A stretch of 64,000 nucleotides of DNA, taken from Halorhabdus utahensis DSM 12940. GTDB taxonomy: Archaea; Halobacteriota; Halobacteria; Halobacteriales; Haloarculaceae. A program made the translations under genes and the position numbers. This document shows, piece after piece, positions 41,538 to 50,061 of the stretch; the stretch's first letter is position 1, and every line of letters starts with the position of its first letter. The notes beneath the pieces are model-generated. The model saw only the letters and a program-made list of their open reading frames with translations, ran no database searches and was not told the origin of the DNA. The stretch lies in assembly GCF_000023945.1 (NCBI RefSeq), contig NC_013158.1:1426001-1490000 (forward strand), in the 5' to 3' direction.

Positions 41538-43298
41538 TCAGAGATTCTGGAAGGTACTGTCGCCCTCGACGAGGGCCTCGATAGTCGAAGCGAGATCGTC
41601 GGCAGCGACGCGGGTCTGGTCGGTGCTGTCTCGATCTCGGATCGTCACGGTCCCGTCTTCGAGGGTGTCGTAGTCGACGGTCACGCAATAGGGTGTGCCG
41701 ACCTCGTCCTGGCGGCGGTAGCGACGGCCGATGGCCCCGGAGTCGTCGTAGGCCACCGCAAGGCCGTCCGCCCGAAGTTCGGCGGCAATCTCGCGGGCAC
41801 GCTCGCCGAGGCCGTCCTTGTCCATCAGCGGAAAGACACCGACCGTGGTCGGTGCGACCGCGGGCGGCAGTTCGAGGTAGGTTCGCTCCTCGCCATCGAC
41901 TTCGTCCTCCCGGTAGGAATGATCGAGTGCCGTATACAGCGCCCGGTCGATCCCCAGCGAGGGCTCGACGACGTGGGGCATGATGTGCTCGCCGGACTCG
42001 GTGACCTCCTCGATCGCGAAGCCGGTCTGCTCGACCGGGACGGTGTACGCCTCGCCGTCGACCTCGACCGTGACGTCCTCGCCCGCGAAGGCGTCGGGAT
42101 CGTCCTCGGCCAGTGCTTCGAGTGCGTCGGCGACATCGCCCGCCGCCCCGCCGAACTCGGGGCCGAGATAGCCCATCTCCGGATCGACGGTCGGCTGCTC
42201 GACAGTTACCGGGTCGTCGTACTGCTTGAAGATCGTGAACTCCGCCTCGGAGTGAGCGTCGTGTTTCGAGAGATCGTAATCCGCGCGATAGGCGAACCCG
42301 CCGAGTTCGATCCAGTCGGGATCCTCATCCGGGTCGCTCACGTCACCCTCGGCGTCCCAGCAGTCCTCGGAATAGTGGGCGAGTTCGCCCGGCCGGTGCT
42401 GGCGAAAGCGAAAGCGATCCATGTCGAGGCCGATGGCCGCGTACCACTCCGCGGCGACGCCCAGATAGTAGGCGATCCACGGGTCGGCGACGATCCCATC
42501 CTCGACCGCCTCGCCGATCGTCATCTCGACTGGCTCGCCGTCCGCGCGGTCCTGCGCTTCGGCGGGGTAGAACTGCGCGGTCACGTCGGCCACGGCGGAG
42601 AGATCCGGCTCGTCTTCCTCAGGATCGACGAACAGTTCGAGTTCGGCCTGGGTGAACTCCCGGACGCGAAGCAGGGACTTGCGGGGACTGATCTCGTTGC
42701 GGTAGGCCCGGCCGATCTGGGTGACGCCGAAGGGCAACTGGTTGCGGGCGTATTCGGCGAACTGTGGGAACTCGATGAAGATCCCCTGGGCAGTTTCGGG
42801 CCGAAGGTACCCCGGCGAGGAGCTGCCGGGGCCGATGTTCGTCTCGAACATGAGGTTGAACTGCTCGATTGCCTGGCCAGCCAGCCCCGTCCCACAGGTC
42901 GGACACGCGAGCTCGTACTCGGCGACGACCTCCTCGATGCGTTCCGGGGCCAGGGACTCGGCCTCCTCGATCCCGGTCTCGCCGTCCTCGACGATGTGGT
43001 CGGCGCGGTGGGATTGCCCGCACTCGGGACACTCGACGAGCATGTCGTCGAACCCGTCGAGATGGCCCGACGCCTCGAAGACCGGTTCCGGTAGGACCGT
43101 GGGGGCGTCGATCTCCATGTGGCCCTCTTGGATCGCGAATCGGTCGCGCCAGGTCTCCTCGACGTTGCGTTTCATCGCAGCCCCCTGCGGGCCGAACGTG
43201 TAGAAGCCGGAGACGCCGCCGTAGGCATCCGCAGACTGGAGGAAGAAGCCGCGGCGCTTGGCGAGTTCGACCAGGGCCTCGGCGCTGACCGACGTCAT
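41538..43298 (-). CDS. glyS: Glycyl-tRNA synthetase (alpha2 type)
   Basis: 586 residues. A class II synthetase of the archaeal/eukaryotic alpha2 type: YGGVSGFYTFGPQGAAMKRN near the start, zinc-ribbon-like cysteines CPECGQSH and CPTCGTGL, motif 2 in RAYRNEISPRKSLLRVREF and motif 3 near MPHVVEPSLGIDRAL. The anticodon-binding domain forms the last 100 residues. It charges tRNA-Gly. The start overlaps the stop of the upstream CBS gene (ATGA), so both are translated from one mRNA. Confidence 0.96.
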   Translation of the reverse strand: MTSVSAEALVELAKRRGFFLQSADAYGGVSGFYTFGPQGAAMKRNVEETWRDRFAIQEGHMEIDAPTVLPEPVFEASGHLDGFDDMLVECPECGQSHRADHIVEDGETGIEEAESLAPERIEEVVAEYELACPTCGTGLAGQAIEQFNLMFETNIGPGSSSPGYLRPETAQGIFIEFPQFAEYARNQLPFGVTQIGRAYRNEISPRKSLLRVREFTQAELELFVDPEEDEPDLSAVADVTAQFYPAEAQDRADGEPVEMTIGEAVEDGIVADPWIAYYLGVAAEWYAAIGLDMDRFRFRQHRPGELAHYSEDCWDAEGDVSDPDEDPDWIELGGFAYRADYDLSKHDAHSEAEFTIFKQYDDPVTVEQPTVDPEMGYLGPEFGGAAGDVADALEALAEDDPDAFAGEDVTVEVDGEAYTVPVEQTGFAIEEVTESGEHIMPHVVEPSLGIDRALYTALDHSYREDEVDGEERTYLELPPAVAPTTVGVFPLMDKDGLGERAREIAAELRADGLAVAYDDSGAIGRRYRRQDEVGTPYCVTVDYDTLEDGTVTIRDRDSTDQTRVAADDLASTIEALVEGDSTFQNL

Positions 43299-44146
43299 TG
43301 TACGGCCTTGATCACGTCGATGTCGCGGACGATGCCCGCGAGGTCGTCACCCGAGACGAGCGGGATCTGCTCGATCTCGTGGCGGATCAACAGCTGGGCC
43401 GCCTCCTTGGCGGTCCGACGGCTGCCGACGGTCACGAGATCGGCCGTCATGTACTCGCTGACCGGCTCATCGGGGAACTCCACGTTCCGCGTCGGCATGT
43501 AGCGGTTCCCGACAGCCTTGATCCCCTCCCACATCCACTCGTCGTCCTGGTTGGCGATGGACTCGCCGGTGCCGGTCTCGCCCTCGACGACCTCGGCGAC
43601 CTCGATCACGTCGACCTCGGTCAGAATGCCGGCGACTTCGGCGTCATCGTCGAGAACGACGCCGTAAGGGACATCCGCGTGTGAGAGTTCGCGTTCGGCG
43701 ACACCCAGCGGCGCACCGGCGTAGACACAGTTGACGTCCGGTCGGGCCAGCTCCCCGACCGGCGTGTCGCCGTCGTCGACGCCGCCCTCGGCGAGCGCGC
43801 GGATGACGTCGGTTATCGTGACGATCCCCTCGAGCTGTCCGTCGACGACGGGGATCCGGCGCTCGCCGGTCTCGACCATCGTCCGCGCGACGCTCGCGAG
43901 GGACGTCTCGCCAGTCGTCGTCGGGACATCCTCGACGAGCATCGCGAGCTGATCCTCGTCCGGGTTTTTGATGAGCGCGTCTCGCGTGACGAGCCCGCGA
44001 CACTCCTCACCTGCGTCAGTCTCTTTGATCACTGGAACGGACGAGAACTGTCGTTCCTGTAAGTACTCGAGGACATCGTCCCGGGTGCCCGGTAACTCGG
44101 CCGTGACGACGTCAACTCGTGGCGTCATGACGTCAGCGACGTTCAT
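43295..44146 (-). CDS. Four-CBS-domain protein
   Basis: 283 residues made of two CBS pairs, with MNVADVMTPRVDVVTAELPG at the start and repeated VPVIKETDAG, GIVTITDVIRAL, GILTEVDVIEVAEV and GIVRDIDVIKAVQ strands. CBS modules bind adenosyl ligands (AMP, ATP, SAM) and sense energy or metabolite state. There is no enzymatic partner domain. It leads the operon with glyS and the polyprenol kinase; a regulatory role for the operon is conceivable but not shown. Confidence 0.9.
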   Translation of the reverse strand: MNVADVMTPRVDVVTAELPGTRDDVLEYLQERQFSSVPVIKETDAGEECRGLVTRDALIKNPDEDQLAMLVEDVPTTTGETSLASVARTMVETGERRIPVVDGQLEGIVTITDVIRALAEGGVDDGDTPVGELARPDVNCVYAGAPLGVAERELSHADVPYGVVLDDDAEVAGILTEVDVIEVAEVVEGETGTGESIANQDDEWMWEGIKAVGNRYMPTRNVEFPDEPVSEYMTADLVTVGSRRTAKEAAQLLIRHEIEQIPLVSGDDLAGIVRDIDVIKAVQ

Positions 44147-44640: not shown

Positions 44641-46227
44641 ATGGAGATCGTAGTTACGAGTTCCGTCGAGGACGCGGGACTGGCGGCACTCACCGACGCG
44701 GGCCACGACGTCCGGACCGTCTCGGTCGACGGGGCTGAGGAACTGGCTGTGGCCGCCGAGGGAGCGGCTGCGTTGATCGTCGACGAGGAGACACCGGTAC
44801 CTGCCGCGGTGTTCGAGCGTGCAACGGACGTACAGATCGTCGGCCGAACCGGGATCGACGTCGACGGGATCGACGTGGCCACGGCGACCGAACACGGCGT
44901 GATCGTCGCCAACGGCCCGGAGGCAGACGTCCAGGCGGTGGCCGAATACATCATCGGGCTGCTGTTCGCCACGGCGCGAGGGATTCCCCAGGGCCACGTT
45001 CGACTGAAAGACGGCGAGTGGGCCAAAGGCGACATCATCGGCTCGGAACTCGACGGCAAGACCGCCGGACTTGTCGGCTTCGACAGCGTCGGCCAGGAGG
45101 TCGCCAAACGACTCGACAACTTGGGGCTCGACGTCGTCGTCTACGCACCCGACGGGGATGGCGAGCGGGCCGCACAGATCGGTGCCGAACGCGTCGATCT
45201 CGACACCTGCCTCGACCGCGCGGACTTCCTCTCGATGCACGCGGGAGCCGATGCGATCCAGTTGGGCGAACGCGAACTCGACGCACTCGGGGAAGCCTAC
45301 CTCGTCAACGGAACGGACGGAAATGTCGTCGACGAGTCGGCACTCGCGAACGCTGCCGAAGACGGTGATCTTCAGGGAGCAGCCCTCGACGCCGTGTCGG
45401 TCTCGCCGCTGCCGGACGACAGCCCACTCCGGGACGTCGAAAACATCCTCGTTACGCCCGAGATCGCCAGCCACACCGCAACGAACGGCGAGTCGGCGTC
45501 CGCGAGCGTCGCGGCTCAGGTACTCGCCGCATTCGACGGCCAGCCGGTCAGCAACGCCGTCAACGTGCCGTCGATTCCACCCGACGCGTATCCGGTCGTC
45601 AAACCATATGCTGACCTGACGGAAACAGTCGCCCGGATCGCGATCCAGCTGTTCGACGGTGACCTCGAATCGGTATCCATCGAATACGCCGGCGACATCG
45701 TCACCGAAACGATCGAGCCCATCACGGCCGCCGGGCTCACTGGCGTGTTCGATCCGCTCGGCTGGGACGCAAACCAGGTCAACGCGCGGCACGTCGCCGA
45801 CGAGCACGGCATCGACGTCGACGTCTCGACGATCCGAGAAGCGCCCGACTTCCAGAACCTGGTGACCGTCACCGTCAGCGGTGGCGGTGACGAACTCAGC
45901 GTCGAAGGAACGCAGTTCGCCGACGGCGAGCCCCGCATCGTCAGTATCGACCGCTACTGGGTCGAGGCGATCCCCCACGGCCACATGCTGATCGTCCGCA
46001 ACGCCGACGAGCCGGGCGTGATCGGGTTCATCGGAACCGTGCTTGGCGAATACGACGTCAACATCGCCGGCATGTTCAACGCCCGGGAAGCCATCGGCGG
46101 CGAGGCGCTGTCGGTGTACAATCTCGACGACGAACCCGGCGAGGACGTCCTGGCTGCGCTTAACGACGACGACCGCATCCTCGAGACCACCGTCGTCGAA
46201 CTCAACGGACAGAACGCCCGCGAGTGA
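44641..46227 (+). CDS. serA: D-3-phosphoglycerate dehydrogenase (SerA) paralogue with substituted catalytic residues
   Basis: 528 residues from ATG 44641 (the frame is open back to 44512). Domain order is SerA: split substrate and NAD domains, an intervening ASB domain and a C-terminal ACT domain (HGHMLIVRNADEPGVIGFIG), length normal. However, the NAD loop reads GFDSVG (146-151) instead of GxGxxG; the catalytic Arg of NCARGG is Asp226 in VNGTDGN; the Glu of DVFxxEP is Ser255; the His of TPHLGAST is Glu274. The remaining domains are well conserved. So this looks like a SerA homologue that has lost dehydrogenase chemistry while keeping the serine-sensing part; a canonical serA should exist elsewhere. 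A changed reaction cannot be excluded. Confidence 0.8.
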   Translation: MEIVVTSSVEDAGLAALTDAGHDVRTVSVDGAEELAVAAEGAAALIVDEETPVPAAVFERATDVQIVGRTGIDVDGIDVATATEHGVIVANGPEADVQAVAEYIIGLLFATARGIPQGHVRLKDGEWAKGDIIGSELDGKTAGLVGFDSVGQEVAKRLDNLGLDVVVYAPDGDGERAAQIGAERVDLDTCLDRADFLSMHAGADAIQLGERELDALGEAYLVNGTDGNVVDESALANAAEDGDLQGAALDAVSVSPLPDDSPLRDVENILVTPEIASHTATNGESASASVAAQVLAAFDGQPVSNAVNVPSIPPDAYPVVKPYADLTETVARIAIQLFDGDLESVSIEYAGDIVTETIEPITAAGLTGVFDPLGWDANQVNARHVADEHGIDVDVSTIREAPDFQNLVTVTVSGGGDELSVEGTQFADGEPRIVSIDRYWVEAIPHGHMLIVRNADEPGVIGFIGTVLGEYDVNIAGMFNAREAIGGEALSVYNLDDEPGEDVLAALNDDDRILETTVVELNGQNARE

Positions 46228-46253: not shown

Positions 46254-46562
46254 TCAGTCCCTCCCACACTCCGGATCACCGGTTGGCGCGGTCCACACGA
46301 AACACCCGTCCGTGGCCTCACCACCGTAGGTTCCCCAGAGTCGATCCCTGGCGGCGACGGCCCGGTGGACCGGCGAGGGGTTCTCGATCGGCGGCCCGCC
46401 GCGGTCGGTCGTCGCTATCCGGACTGATTCGGAAGCTGAGCGGTGGGTTACACTGTCTCCCCGGCTCACCCCACACGCCAGCCGCAGTTTCCCGTCGAGA
46501 CGTGGTTCCGGCGGCTGCAACCGATTTCGTTCTGTCGACGACGAATCGTGATCAGCTGACAT
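46254..46562 (-). CDS. Hypothetical protein (weak)
   Basis: 102 codons between the convergent serA and thrC genes. The sequence is rich in Arg, Asp, Thr and Gly (SVRIATTDRGGPPIENP near the middle) and has no recognised motif, but its composition is less arginine-heavy than a typical shadow frame. The remaining part of 46228-46662 holds nothing else I can support. Annotated only because the gap is otherwise empty. Confidence 0.3.
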   Translation of the reverse strand: MSADHDSSSTERNRLQPPEPRLDGKLRLACGVSRGDSVTHRSASESVRIATTDRGGPPIENPSPVHRAVAARDRLWGTYGGEATDGCFVWTAPTGDPECGRD

Positions 46563-46662: not shown

Positions 46663-47934
46663 TCAGGACCGCAGATGTTCGAGCACGTCGTCGGTGTCGG
46701 CGGGAACCGGTTCGGGGTCGGTTCCCGCCTCCGCGGCCGCGTCGGGATCTTTCAGGAGGTGCCCGGTCGTCAGGCAGACCACCTGCTCGTCAGCGGTGAC
46801 GACGCCCTCCTCACGGAGTTTTCGAAGGCCAGCGATCGAAGCGGCCGAAGCGGGTTCGACCCCGACCCCTTCCTCGGCGAGGGATCGCTGGGCGTCGGTG
46901 ATCTCCTCGTCGCTAACAGCGATGGCCGTCCCGCCAGTCTCGCGGATGCCCGGCAGTGCCTTTGGTGCGTTGACCGGGTTGCCGATCCGGATCGCCGTCG
47001 CTCTGGTCTCGACATCGTCCCAGCGCTCGATGTGATCCCAATCGTGCTCGATAGCCTCGACCATCGGTGCCGCGCCCGCGGCCTGGACGCCCGTGATCTT
47101 CGGGATCTGGTCCTCGTCGATTGCCCCGGTCGCTTCGAGTTCCCGGAAGGCCTTGTACAGCGCGGCCGTGTTGCCCGCGTTGCCGACCGGCAGCACGATC
47201 CGGTCAGGGAAAGCCCCCTCCTCGTCGCGGAACTGCTCCATGATCTCGAGGCCGATGGTCTTCTGGCCCTCCAGTCGGAACGGGTTCAGCGAGTTGAGCA
47301 GGTAGGCCTCGCCGCGGTCGGCCAGGTCCTTGACGATATCCAGACACCGATCGAAGTTGCCATCGACCTCCAGAATCCGCGCGCCATGGAGACTCGCCTG
47401 GGCGATCTTTCCGGCGGCGACTTTCCCTGCCGGCAGGAGCACGAGCACTTGCAATCCCGCCCGGGAGCCGTAGGCCGACAGCGCCGCGGAGGTGTTGCCC
47501 GTCGAGGCGCAGGCCAGCCGACCCACGCCCACTTCCTGGGCGACCCGAACACCCACCGTCATCCCGCGGTCCTTGAAGCTGCCCGTCGGGTTCATCCCCT
47601 CGTGTTTGACTCGCAGGCGCTCGACGCCGATCTCGTCTTCGAGTCGCGGGACATTGTGGAGTGGCGTGTCGCCCTCCGGGAGGGAGACCCCTTCGTCGAA
47701 GGGAAGTGCGTCGCTGTAGCGCCAGACGCCGCCGTGAAACGCCGACTCGTCGTCCCCGAAGTCCGCGAACGTCGGCAGGTCAGCGTACCGGACCTCGAGC
47801 AGCCCCTCACACTCGTCGCACGTGTAGCGAATCCCCGCAAAGGGCGGGAAGTGCTCGCCACACTCGATGCAGGTCAGCCAGACGCCGTCGGTCGCCTCGG
47901 TTGGCTCCTCCTGGGTGATCTCTAGATAGCTCAT
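46663..47934 (-). CDS. thrC: Threonine synthase
   Basis: 423 residues. An N-terminal zinc-ribbon-like part (CIECGEHFPPF and CDECEGLLEV) precedes the PLP fold. The PLP lysine is in NPTGSFKDRGMTVG, followed by ACASTGNTSAALSAYGS and the phosphate-binding PVGNAGNTAALYKAF. It converts O-phosphohomoserine to threonine. The gene is convergent with the SerA paralogue. Its 5' side faces a cluster of hairpins and a fragment of argF. Confidence 0.95.
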   Translation of the reverse strand: MSYLEITQEEPTEATDGVWLTCIECGEHFPPFAGIRYTCDECEGLLEVRYADLPTFADFGDDESAFHGGVWRYSDALPFDEGVSLPEGDTPLHNVPRLEDEIGVERLRVKHEGMNPTGSFKDRGMTVGVRVAQEVGVGRLACASTGNTSAALSAYGSRAGLQVLVLLPAGKVAAGKIAQASLHGARILEVDGNFDRCLDIVKDLADRGEAYLLNSLNPFRLEGQKTIGLEIMEQFRDEEGAFPDRIVLPVGNAGNTAALYKAFRELEATGAIDEDQIPKITGVQAAGAAPMVEAIEHDWDHIERWDDVETRATAIRIGNPVNAPKALPGIRETGGTAIAVSDEEITDAQRSLAEEGVGVEPASAASIAGLRKLREEGVVTADEQVVCLTTGHLLKDPDAAAEAGTDPEPVPADTDDVLEHLRS

Positions 47935-48096: not shown

Positions 48097-48225
48097 TTAC
48101 GACGACCGATCGGCCAGCCACACCAGCCCCCTCTTCTGGGCATGCAGGCGGTTCTTCGCTTGCTCCCACACGATAGCGTTGTCGCTCTCGATGGCCGCGT
48201 CGGTGACCTCCTCGCCCCGATGGGC
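48097..48225 (-). pseudogene. Duplicated 3' end of argF (argF')
   Basis: The minus strand encodes AHRGEEVTDAAIESDNAIVW then EQAKNRLHAQKRGLVWLAD and a stop, a diverged copy of the last 42 residues of ArgF, whose intact copy ends at 49168-49293. By eye the two DNA copies agree at about 100 of 120 positions. Upstream the homology stops abruptly at the position where the toxin-antitoxin module begins. It cannot be functional by itself. Confidence 0.8.
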
Positions 48226-48240
48226 CGACCGTCGACGGAC

Positions 48241-48286: not shown

Positions 48287-48532
48287 ATGGCAACCGAGTC
48301 AGGACCCGAAGAAACCAAAGTCAGCGACCGCGGGATGGTCACCATCCCGGCGGCGCTTCGGCGACGCCTCGACATCGAGGCGGGGGACAAGCTCCGGTGG
48401 ACGGTCGACGACGACGGGGACCTCTCCGTCGAAGTGCTCCACCAGCGAGAGGGTGTCTTCGACGATTTCGAGCCGGTCGACGCCGGCGAGACCGACGCTG
48501 TGGCACTCGAATCGGAGTTCGGAGCCGAGTGA
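48287..48532 (+). CDS. AbrB/MazE-type antitoxin (VapB-like)
   Basis: 81 residues from ATG 48287. The swapped-hairpin DNA-binding domain is evident in TKVSDRGMVTIPAALRRRLD and IEAGDKLRWTVDDDGDLSVE, followed by an acidic C-terminal tail that would neutralise the toxin. Its stop overlaps the toxin start by one base (TGATG), the standard coupling of such modules. It should autoregulate through the dyads upstream. Confidence 0.9.
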   Translation: MATESGPEETKVSDRGMVTIPAALRRRLDIEAGDKLRWTVDDDGDLSVEVLHQREGVFDDFEPVDAGETDAVALESEFGAE

Positions 48533-48960
48533 TGGCACGCATCGTCCTCGATACGAACGTTCTGTTCGCTGCTGCGAGCGCCCGTGACCGCTATCACGAC
48601 CGCGCACGGGAGATCGTTCGCGGGATCGACCACGGCGACCTCCCGGAGGCCGTCGTCTCGAACTACGTCCTCGCGGAGACGCTGAACCTCACGCGCGAGA
48701 AACTCGGCCCCGAGGCCGCGAACGCGCTGCTCGATCGCCTCCTCGAGGGTGCCCACTTCGAAGTCAACCACGCACCGAGAGCCGATTTCAACGCTGCCCA
48801 GGCGCTGTTCCGCCGGTACGACGCCCTCTCCTTCGTTGATGCGACGATCGTCGCGTATCTCGAGCGCGAAGGAAGCGAGTACCTGTATTCCTTCGACGAC
48901 GATTTCGACGCGGTCGAGGAGCTGACACGACTCGATACTGCCGTGAACCCGTTCGAGTGA
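48532..48960 (+). CDS. PIN-domain toxin (VapC family)
   Basis: 142 residues from ATG 48532. The acidic PIN residues are all present: Asp in IVLDTNVLFAA, Glu in NYVLAETLNLT, Asp in ALSFVDATIVAYL and Asp in LYSFDDDFDAVEE. VapC toxins are Mg2+-dependent ribonucleases, often cutting tRNA or rRNA. The module lies exactly between the two copies of the argF 3' end, implying acquisition together with that duplication. Confidence 0.9.
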   Translation: MARIVLDTNVLFAAASARDRYHDRAREIVRGIDHGDLPEAVVSNYVLAETLNLTREKLGPEAANALLDRLLEGAHFEVNHAPRADFNAAQALFRRYDALSFVDATIVAYLEREGSEYLYSFDDDFDAVEELTRLDTAVNPFE

Positions 48961-49167: not shown

Positions 49168-50061
49168 TTATGCCCGCTCGGCCAGCCACACCAACAACCC
49201 GTTCTGGGCGTGCAGTCGGTTCTCCGCCTGCTCCCACACGATCGCGTTCTCACTCTCGATGACCTCGTCGGTGACCTCCTCGCCGCGGTGGGCCGGCAGA
49301 CAGTGCATCAGCGTGCGATCGCCGAGCAACTCGGTCGTGACCTGAAAGCCCTCGAAGGCCGCGAGTTTCTCCTCGCGCTCGTCCTCCTGGCCCATGCTGA
49401 CAAAGACGTCCGTGTAGACCACGTCGGCGTCTTCGACGGCCGCTTCGGGATCGTGTGTCGTCTCGGGAGCGGTCCCCAACTCGGCCGCACGATCGAGAAC
49501 CTCCTCGTCGATTTCGTAGCCCTCCGGGGTCGCGACGGTCAGATCGAGGCCGACCATCGCCGCGCCGAGGACCAAGGACTGGGCGACGTTGTTGCCGTCG
49601 CCGACCCAGGCGACTCTGACGGTGTCGAAGCCACCGAACTCCTGGCGGATCGTCAGTAGGTCCGCCAGCGTCTGGCAGGGATGGGCATCGTCGGTCAGGC
49701 CGTTGATCACCGGCACGGTGGCGTACTCGGCCAGTTCCTCGGCGTCAGCGTGGTCGAACAGCCGCGCCATGATCGCGTCGGCGTACCGCGAGACCGCCCG
49801 CGCGGTGTCCTTGACCGGTTCGCTATCCCCCAGGTGGATATCGTCCGGCCCGAGGAAGATGGCGTGGCCGCCGAGCTGGGTCATCCCGGTCTCGAAGGAG
49901 ACCCGGGTCCGGGTCGAGGGCTTCTCGAAGATCATCGCGAGCGTCTCGTCTTCGAGGGGGTTGCCCGCCTCCTCGCCGGCCTTGATGGTGGCGGCGCGAT
50001 CGAGGACGGTCGTCAGTTCCTCGCTCGTCAGGTCGTCGATGTCGAGTACGTTGCGTGTCAT
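49168..50061 (-). CDS. argF: Ornithine carbamoyltransferase
   Basis: 297 residues. Carbamoyl-phosphate motif STRTR (EKPSTRTRVSFETGM), HPCQTLADLLT and the ornithine-binding HCLPAHRGEEV are intact. It makes citrulline from ornithine, the step before ArgG. It is the last gene of the minus-strand arginine operon and overlaps argE by four bases. Its 3' end is the copy matched by the fragment at 48097-48225; the gene itself is complete. Confidence 0.96.
   Translation of the reverse strand: MTRNVLDIDDLTSEELTTVLDRAATIKAGEEAGNPLEDETLAMIFEKPSTRTRVSFETGMTQLGGHAIFLGPDDIHLGDSEPVKDTARAVSRYADAIMARLFDHADAEELAEYATVPVINGLTDDAHPCQTLADLLTIRQEFGGFDTVRVAWVGDGNNVAQSLVLGAAMVGLDLTVATPEGYEIDEEVLDRAAELGTAPETTHDPEAAVEDADVVYTDVFVSMGQEDEREEKLAAFEGFQVTTELLGDRTLMHCLPAHRGEEVTDEVIESENAIVWEQAENRLHAQNGLLVWLAERA

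Follow-up and report, generated by a model that had tools for sequence, protein, structure and literature searches.

Copy A, a SerA paralogue of Halorhabdus utahensis, is near certainly dead as a phosphoglycerate dehydrogenase (PGDH), judging from its sequence, and we consider it probable that it acts as an obligate non-catalytic partner, giving a lysine in trans (K129') to a second SerA, copy B, and carrying an ACT sensor. An earlier note on this DNA had described a pseudo-enzyme that would be a serine sensor, the partner of a real SerA or the bearer of a new function. That it is a pseudo-enzyme is strongly supported by comparison of its cis losses with 74 canonical SerAs and by the sharing of these losses among orthologues. 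Of the three proposed roles, that of partner is favoured, copy B having lost exactly the residue that PGDH subunits lend one another, and the other two are less favoured.

Architecture and active site of copy A

The gene lies in the window, that is, the whole 64,000-nucleotide stretch analysed. Its reading frame, start and stop had been given exactly before, and the frame opens at the homologous Met. Pfam detected both 2-hydroxyacid dehydrogenase (2HADH) domains (PF00389 and PF02826), PGDH_inter (ASB, PF19304) and ACT (PF01842), in agreement with the claim that the SerA architecture is retained together with its ASB and ACT domains. Copy A thus has the complete make-up of a type I PGDH, with 2HADH catalytic and NAD domains, ASB and ACT.

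44641..46227 (+): copy A, type I SerA paralogue without catalytic residues (528 aa, P0001)
45598..45948 (+): PGDH_inter (ASB) domain of copy A, residues 320-436, from Pfam
45982..46167 (+): ACT domain of copy A, residues 448-509, from Pfam

The closest solved relative is the PGDH of M. tuberculosis (Mtb), with an alignment that spans residues 9-508. Compared with type I SerA (TIGR01327; M. tuberculosis PGDH 1ygy/3dc2), copy A shows the same domain order, substrate-nucleotide-ASB-ACT, at about 32% identity over the full length, and keeps ASB, ACT and the arm that acts in trans, but it differs by its lost cis catalytic and cofactor residues and by its score. Against the SerA equivalog model TIGR01327, whose curated cut-off is 454 bits, copy A reached only 406 bits; for comparison, copy B scored 538, the dead copy of G011 (a genome of another genus) 412 and canonical examples 592-623. 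An AlphaFold single-chain model of copy A had a mean pLDDT of 85.0 and a pTM of 0.72, with 3ddn/3dc2 as its best structural matches. Whole-chain TM-scores against the best-matching structures were low (0.46-0.50), which suggests that the domains are shifted.

Residue conservation was judged against 74 canonical haloarchaeal SerAs, and copy A was also aligned to M. tuberculosis PGDH. The alignment placed the following changes:

44782..44784 (+): codon 48, phosphate-binding Arg (Mtb Arg51) to Asp
44857..44859 (+): codon 73, substrate-loop Gly to Asp, in 7/7 orthologues
45076..45093 (+): codons 146-151, GFDSVG, the dinucleotide loop, second Gly to Asp148
45145..45147 (+): codon 169, cofactor-binding Asp (end of beta-2) to Ala
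45316..45318 (+): codon 226, catalytic Arg (Mtb Arg233) to Asp
45403..45405 (+): codon 255, catalytic Glu to Ser
45460..45462 (+): codon 274, catalytic His (Mtb His280) to Glu

Six of these are cis losses (R48D, G148D, D169A, R226D, E255S and H274E), all at positions invariant in 74/74 canonical SerAs. The catalytic Arg-Glu-His, the phosphate Arg, GxGxxG and the cofactor Asp, by which SerA membership is judged, are therefore all missing. The chance that a random 18 lost among 90 invariant positions would include all six cis positions was 3e-5, and the alignment ruled out chance or misread motifs as the source of the losses.

The motifs that the earlier note had read as altered were recovered by the alignment: NCARGG is NGTDGN, with the catalytic Arg as Asp226; TPHLGAST is TPEIASHT, with the His as Glu274; and GFDSVG stands where canonical SerAs have GLGRVG, with the second Gly as Asp148. 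Its list did not include the losses of Arg48 (to Asp), Asp169 (to Ala) and Gly73 (to Asp). Its replacement of the DVFxxEP Glu by Ser255 holds for H. utahensis copy A (DAVSVSP) but not as a group-wide trait, since this loss is not fixed and Glu is still present in two of the seven orthologues. The losses of Arg48, Arg226, His274, the second Gly and Asp169 are common to all seven orthologues in the genus. The note had also proposed a search for orthologues with the same substitutions and for a second, canonical serA in the genome; the former are present across the genus, and the latter exists as the motif-complete copy B.

Copy B and the residue acting in trans

Copy B is a second full-length SerA encoded on the same chromosome (G000:C1:1320606-1322171), outside the window; its gene lies about 150 kb from that of copy A, and the two share no operon. 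Each of the seven genomes of the genus Halorhabdus has a copy B, 45-47% identical to copy A. It retains all six cis residues (R48, the Gly of GxGxxG, D169, R226, E255 and H274), the phosphate Arg R48 being kept in 7/7 copy B sequences, and at 538 bits it passes the TIGR01327 equivalog cut-off. The HTPLT motif has become QARLT in copy B, a type of change already found in the sister genus, whose B keeps Lys129. The phosphoserine phosphatase SerB and another 2-hydroxyacid dehydrogenase are encoded in the genome as well, and the canonical serC model gave no match either in this genome or in the Haloferax volcanii control.

The substrate phosphate of PGDHs is bound by two cationic residues. One of them is contributed by the adjoining subunit (human Arg134', Mtb Arg132', E. 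coli Lys141'; PMC6300728), and a Trp close to it (E. coli Trp139) likewise lies in the active site of the neighbouring subunit (PMC6300728). The corresponding arm is present in copy A:

45019..45027 (+): codons 127-129, Trp-Ala-Lys of copy A, the arm reaching the neighbour's active site in PGDHs, with Trp127 and Lys129 kept (alignment; roles from PMC6300728)

Lys129, two residues after Trp127, is the counterpart of the trans-acting residue, in a stretch where copy A and the B copies of the genus align without gaps. Lys occupies this position in 74/74 canonical SerAs, in 7/7 copy A sequences, in the A of G011 and in both Halapricum copies. Gly is found there in 7/7 copy B sequences and in the B of G011, that is, in exactly the eight genomes with a dead A; the B of G011 also has a two-residue deletion at the arm. 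No substitute basic residue was found close to position 129 in copy B. The pattern is reciprocal: A lacks the cis residues but has the trans Lys, and B has all the cis residues but lacks the trans Lys. The B of the sister genus keeps 87 of the positions that are invariant in canonical SerAs; just three of these 87 differ along the branch to the B of the eight affected genomes, Lys129 among them. Within the catalytic half of copy A, residues 98-165, which include the arm, are preserved best (mismatch 0.19, compared with 0.35-0.42 in the rest; 0/10000 permutations). Since the eight affected genomes share an ancestor, the loss of Lys129 and the inactivation of A were probably one event each, and the coincidence counts once, without replication in independent lineages, which is the chief weakness of the case for a heteromer.

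Selection, distribution and locus

Copy A is full length in 7/7 genomes of the genus, with no stops and no frameshifts, and its dN/dS among genus orthologues is 0.14-0.26 (Nei-Gojobori). As in pseudoenzymes, changes predicted from sequence to be inactivating are common to all seven orthologues and stand under purifying selection. No part of copy A is better kept than its ACT domain, whereas no part of copy B is kept worse. Copy A retains 27/27 ACT positions conserved at 97% or more and loses 26/75 such positions in the nucleotide-binding domain, and its ACT serine-pocket positions Asn454, Asp456 and Asn474 match canonical haloarchaeal SerA. Between the two subclades of the genus, identity in copy A is 82% for the ACT and 59-67% for the other domains; in copy B it is 65% for the ACT, with the divergence mostly within the last 33 residues, and 78-90% for the other domains. 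This reversed domain order was reached in 0/10000 permutations of positions; the two Halapricum copies, which are both catalytic, have their domains conserved in the usual order. Evolution of the catalytic half is several times faster in copy A than in copy B; this is not so for the ACT of A. A loss of the ACT serine pocket in copy B was looked for and not found, the pocket positions being kept in A and B alike; the split of sensing between the copies is thus only a tendency, and B may still sense by itself.

Nearly all of 292 class-wide haloarchaeal genomes have one strong SerA match. A pair of the A/B type occurs in 7/7 genomes of the window's genus, in G011 and in the sister genus, to which G008 belongs and which was taken to be Halapricum because the named locus L041 is near-identical. 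A and B always co-occur in the genus and, with G011 included, a dead A is accompanied by a catalytic paralogue B in 8/8 genomes, as expected of a prozyme-type partner. Copy A is dead in the window's genus and in G011; in Halapricum all catalytic residues are kept in both copies. In quick trees, with SH-aLRT support only, the dead copies cluster and adjoin Halapricum A, and all B copies cluster near the SerAs of the family, but on a long stem and with weak support; B may stem from a duplication or from a transfer.

The dead SerA of G011 (L081:5917-7494) has a very long branch in the trees, with 1.4-1.5 changes per site; it has D148, D73 and E274 in common with copy A and keeps D169. Unrelated second SerA copies occur in a few other genomes, and those read (G142, G179 and G369) keep the catalytic motifs. 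The sole SerA of G016 (G016:C12:253209-254785) is in two frames with a break at about residue 237, a frameshift that is either real or a sequencing error. For G033 and G041, of the same order, no SerA match spanned the full length, and shorter 2-hydroxyacid dehydrogenases were all that was found.

Throughout the genus, copy A lies between glyS-CBS and thrC-argF, where related genera such as those of L097, L098 and L101 have their single SerA, so the copy at the native locus is the one that lost catalysis. As this place is the common serA locus of related haloarchaea, a special genomic context pointing to a new function of copy A was rejected. Two conserved neighbours mark the locus, both named from sequence and general knowledge:

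43295..44146 (-): gene for what we take to be a CBS-domain protein, conserved neighbour at the ancestral serA locus
46663..47934 (-): presumably thrC (threonine synthase), conserved neighbour at the ancestral serA locus

A 102-aa frame between copy A and thrC (46254-46562, -) has no Pfam match, and tblastn gave matches 40-79% identical at this position in five further Halorhabdus genomes. Given its unusual codon composition, the frame may be no real gene. Between thrC and argF lies a PIN-domain (VapC-like) gene (48526-48960, +), preceded by a short AbrB-like frame recognised by eye, with no Pfam match. A 122-base repeat of the argF 3' end (48106-48227 and 49174-49295, 86% identical) flanks the PIN-domain gene on its far side, an arrangement suggestive of a toxin-antitoxin module that entered at the argF tail and left that tail in two copies. 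A frame overlapping the PIN/AbrB stretch is present in some, not all, genomes of the genus.

A proposed two-gene dehydrogenase and its alternatives

We propose that copy A would be the non-catalytic subunit of a two-gene phosphoglycerate dehydrogenase, in which cofactor binding and the catalytic Arg, Glu and His would fall to copy B. In an A:B dimer the arm of A (Trp127, Lys129) would enter the active site of B and provide the phosphate-binding lysine that B lacks, so that each A:B pair would have one working site, with the dead pocket of A facing the lysine-less arm of B. Because its own pocket is dead, A would lend Lys129' and receive nothing; because B lacks Lys129, a B homodimer is predicted to bind the substrate phosphate poorly. 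The strong conservation of the ACT of copy A suggests that feedback sensing, of serine or another amino acid, is probably mainly on A. From these patterns we infer an interaction of A with B, an impairment of B when alone and serine as the ligand. At slightly better than an even chance, a homo-oligomeric allosteric enzyme with inter-subunit sites has here split into an obligate heteromer, a prozyme-type PGDH in which B is cis-catalytic and A gives the trans lysine and the ACT, with the two-intact-copy intermediate still present in the sister genus. Against such a heteromer stands the distance between the two genes; moreover, the arm of copy A might be retained for homodimerisation only, and the loss of Lys129 in B could reflect a changed substrate.

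Such a change would mean that copy B is no longer the main PGDH, with A a relic or otherwise employed and serine made by another route. The Lys129Gly replacement, together with the change of HTPLT to QARLT, several B-specific changes and the further 2-hydroxyacid dehydrogenase, would fit, but B has the other phosphate Arg and the whole catalytic set, scores above the PGDH equivalog cut-off and is accompanied by SerB, and the QARLT-type change is already present in the sister genus, whose B has the lysine; we regard this reading as quite improbable. A role of copy A as an amino-acid sensor that stands alone or acts separately is rather unlikely; it would then be a homo-oligomeric pseudoenzyme with an ACT that binds serine, and its target would not be SerA but, for example, a regulator or a neighbouring thr/arg enzyme. 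The ACT is indeed its most conserved domain, and the gene adjoins thrC and arginine genes; this location, however, is the ordinary ancestral serA locus and hence nothing special, the Pfam domain search found no DNA-binding domain in copy A, and the loss of Lys129 from the B of exactly these genomes would be left unexplained.

The altered pocket itself could have gained a new catalytic or binding activity, with Asp or Glu in place of Arg or His, and the replacements D73, D148, A169 and D226 are the same in all members of the genus. Among the orthologues, though, there is free variation at other pocket positions (S/A/E at 255, E/A/G at 274, G/R/T/A at 76), and conservation in copy A is lowest in 166-282, the pocket part of the nucleotide-binding domain; we consider such a gain very unlikely. 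That copy A is a decaying pseudogene without function is hardly credible: the fast evolution of its catalytic half and the very long branch of the G011 copy would agree with decay, but the dN/dS and the intact frames in seven species speak against it, and its ACT is more conserved than that of B.

Splits between catalytic and regulatory subunits, paralogous or partner, occur in HisZ-HisG, the ADP-glucose pyrophosphorylase large subunit and yeast NAD-IDH, families that differ from SerA; we know of none for SerA, and a literature search for an inactive PGDH partner found none. In trypanosomes, a dead deoxyhypusine synthase paralogue activates an impaired one by forming a hetero-oligomer (DHSc/DHSp), the complex being 3000-fold more active (PMC3663545). 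The likeness between the proposed A:B heteromer and the trypanosomatid prozymes (deoxyhypusine synthase DHSc/DHSp and the AdoMetDC prozyme) is that of a duplicated enzyme with one dead and one impaired paralogue; those are, however, unrelated eukaryotic enzymes with other folds, their pairing is demonstrated where ours is deduced, and copy A also has an ACT domain. Within the 2HADH superfamily, Arabidopsis ANGUSTIFOLIA (CtBP sister clade) likewise has a 2HADH fold without catalytic residues, but it belongs to another subfamily, and ASB/ACT domains and a catalytic partner are not described for it in the passage cited (PMC6303947).

If true, the A:B heteromer would be a clean natural case of an enzyme with shared active sites turning into an obligate heteromer, through stages from a single copy to two intact copies (in the sister genus) and then to complementary half-active copies. 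As every stage has living representatives, the evolution of a pseudoenzyme partner could be replayed by experiment. The annotation would also be corrected, in that the gene at the ancestral serA locus of the genus would not on its own encode an active SerA, and metabolic models in which either copy suffices for serine synthesis would be mistaken.
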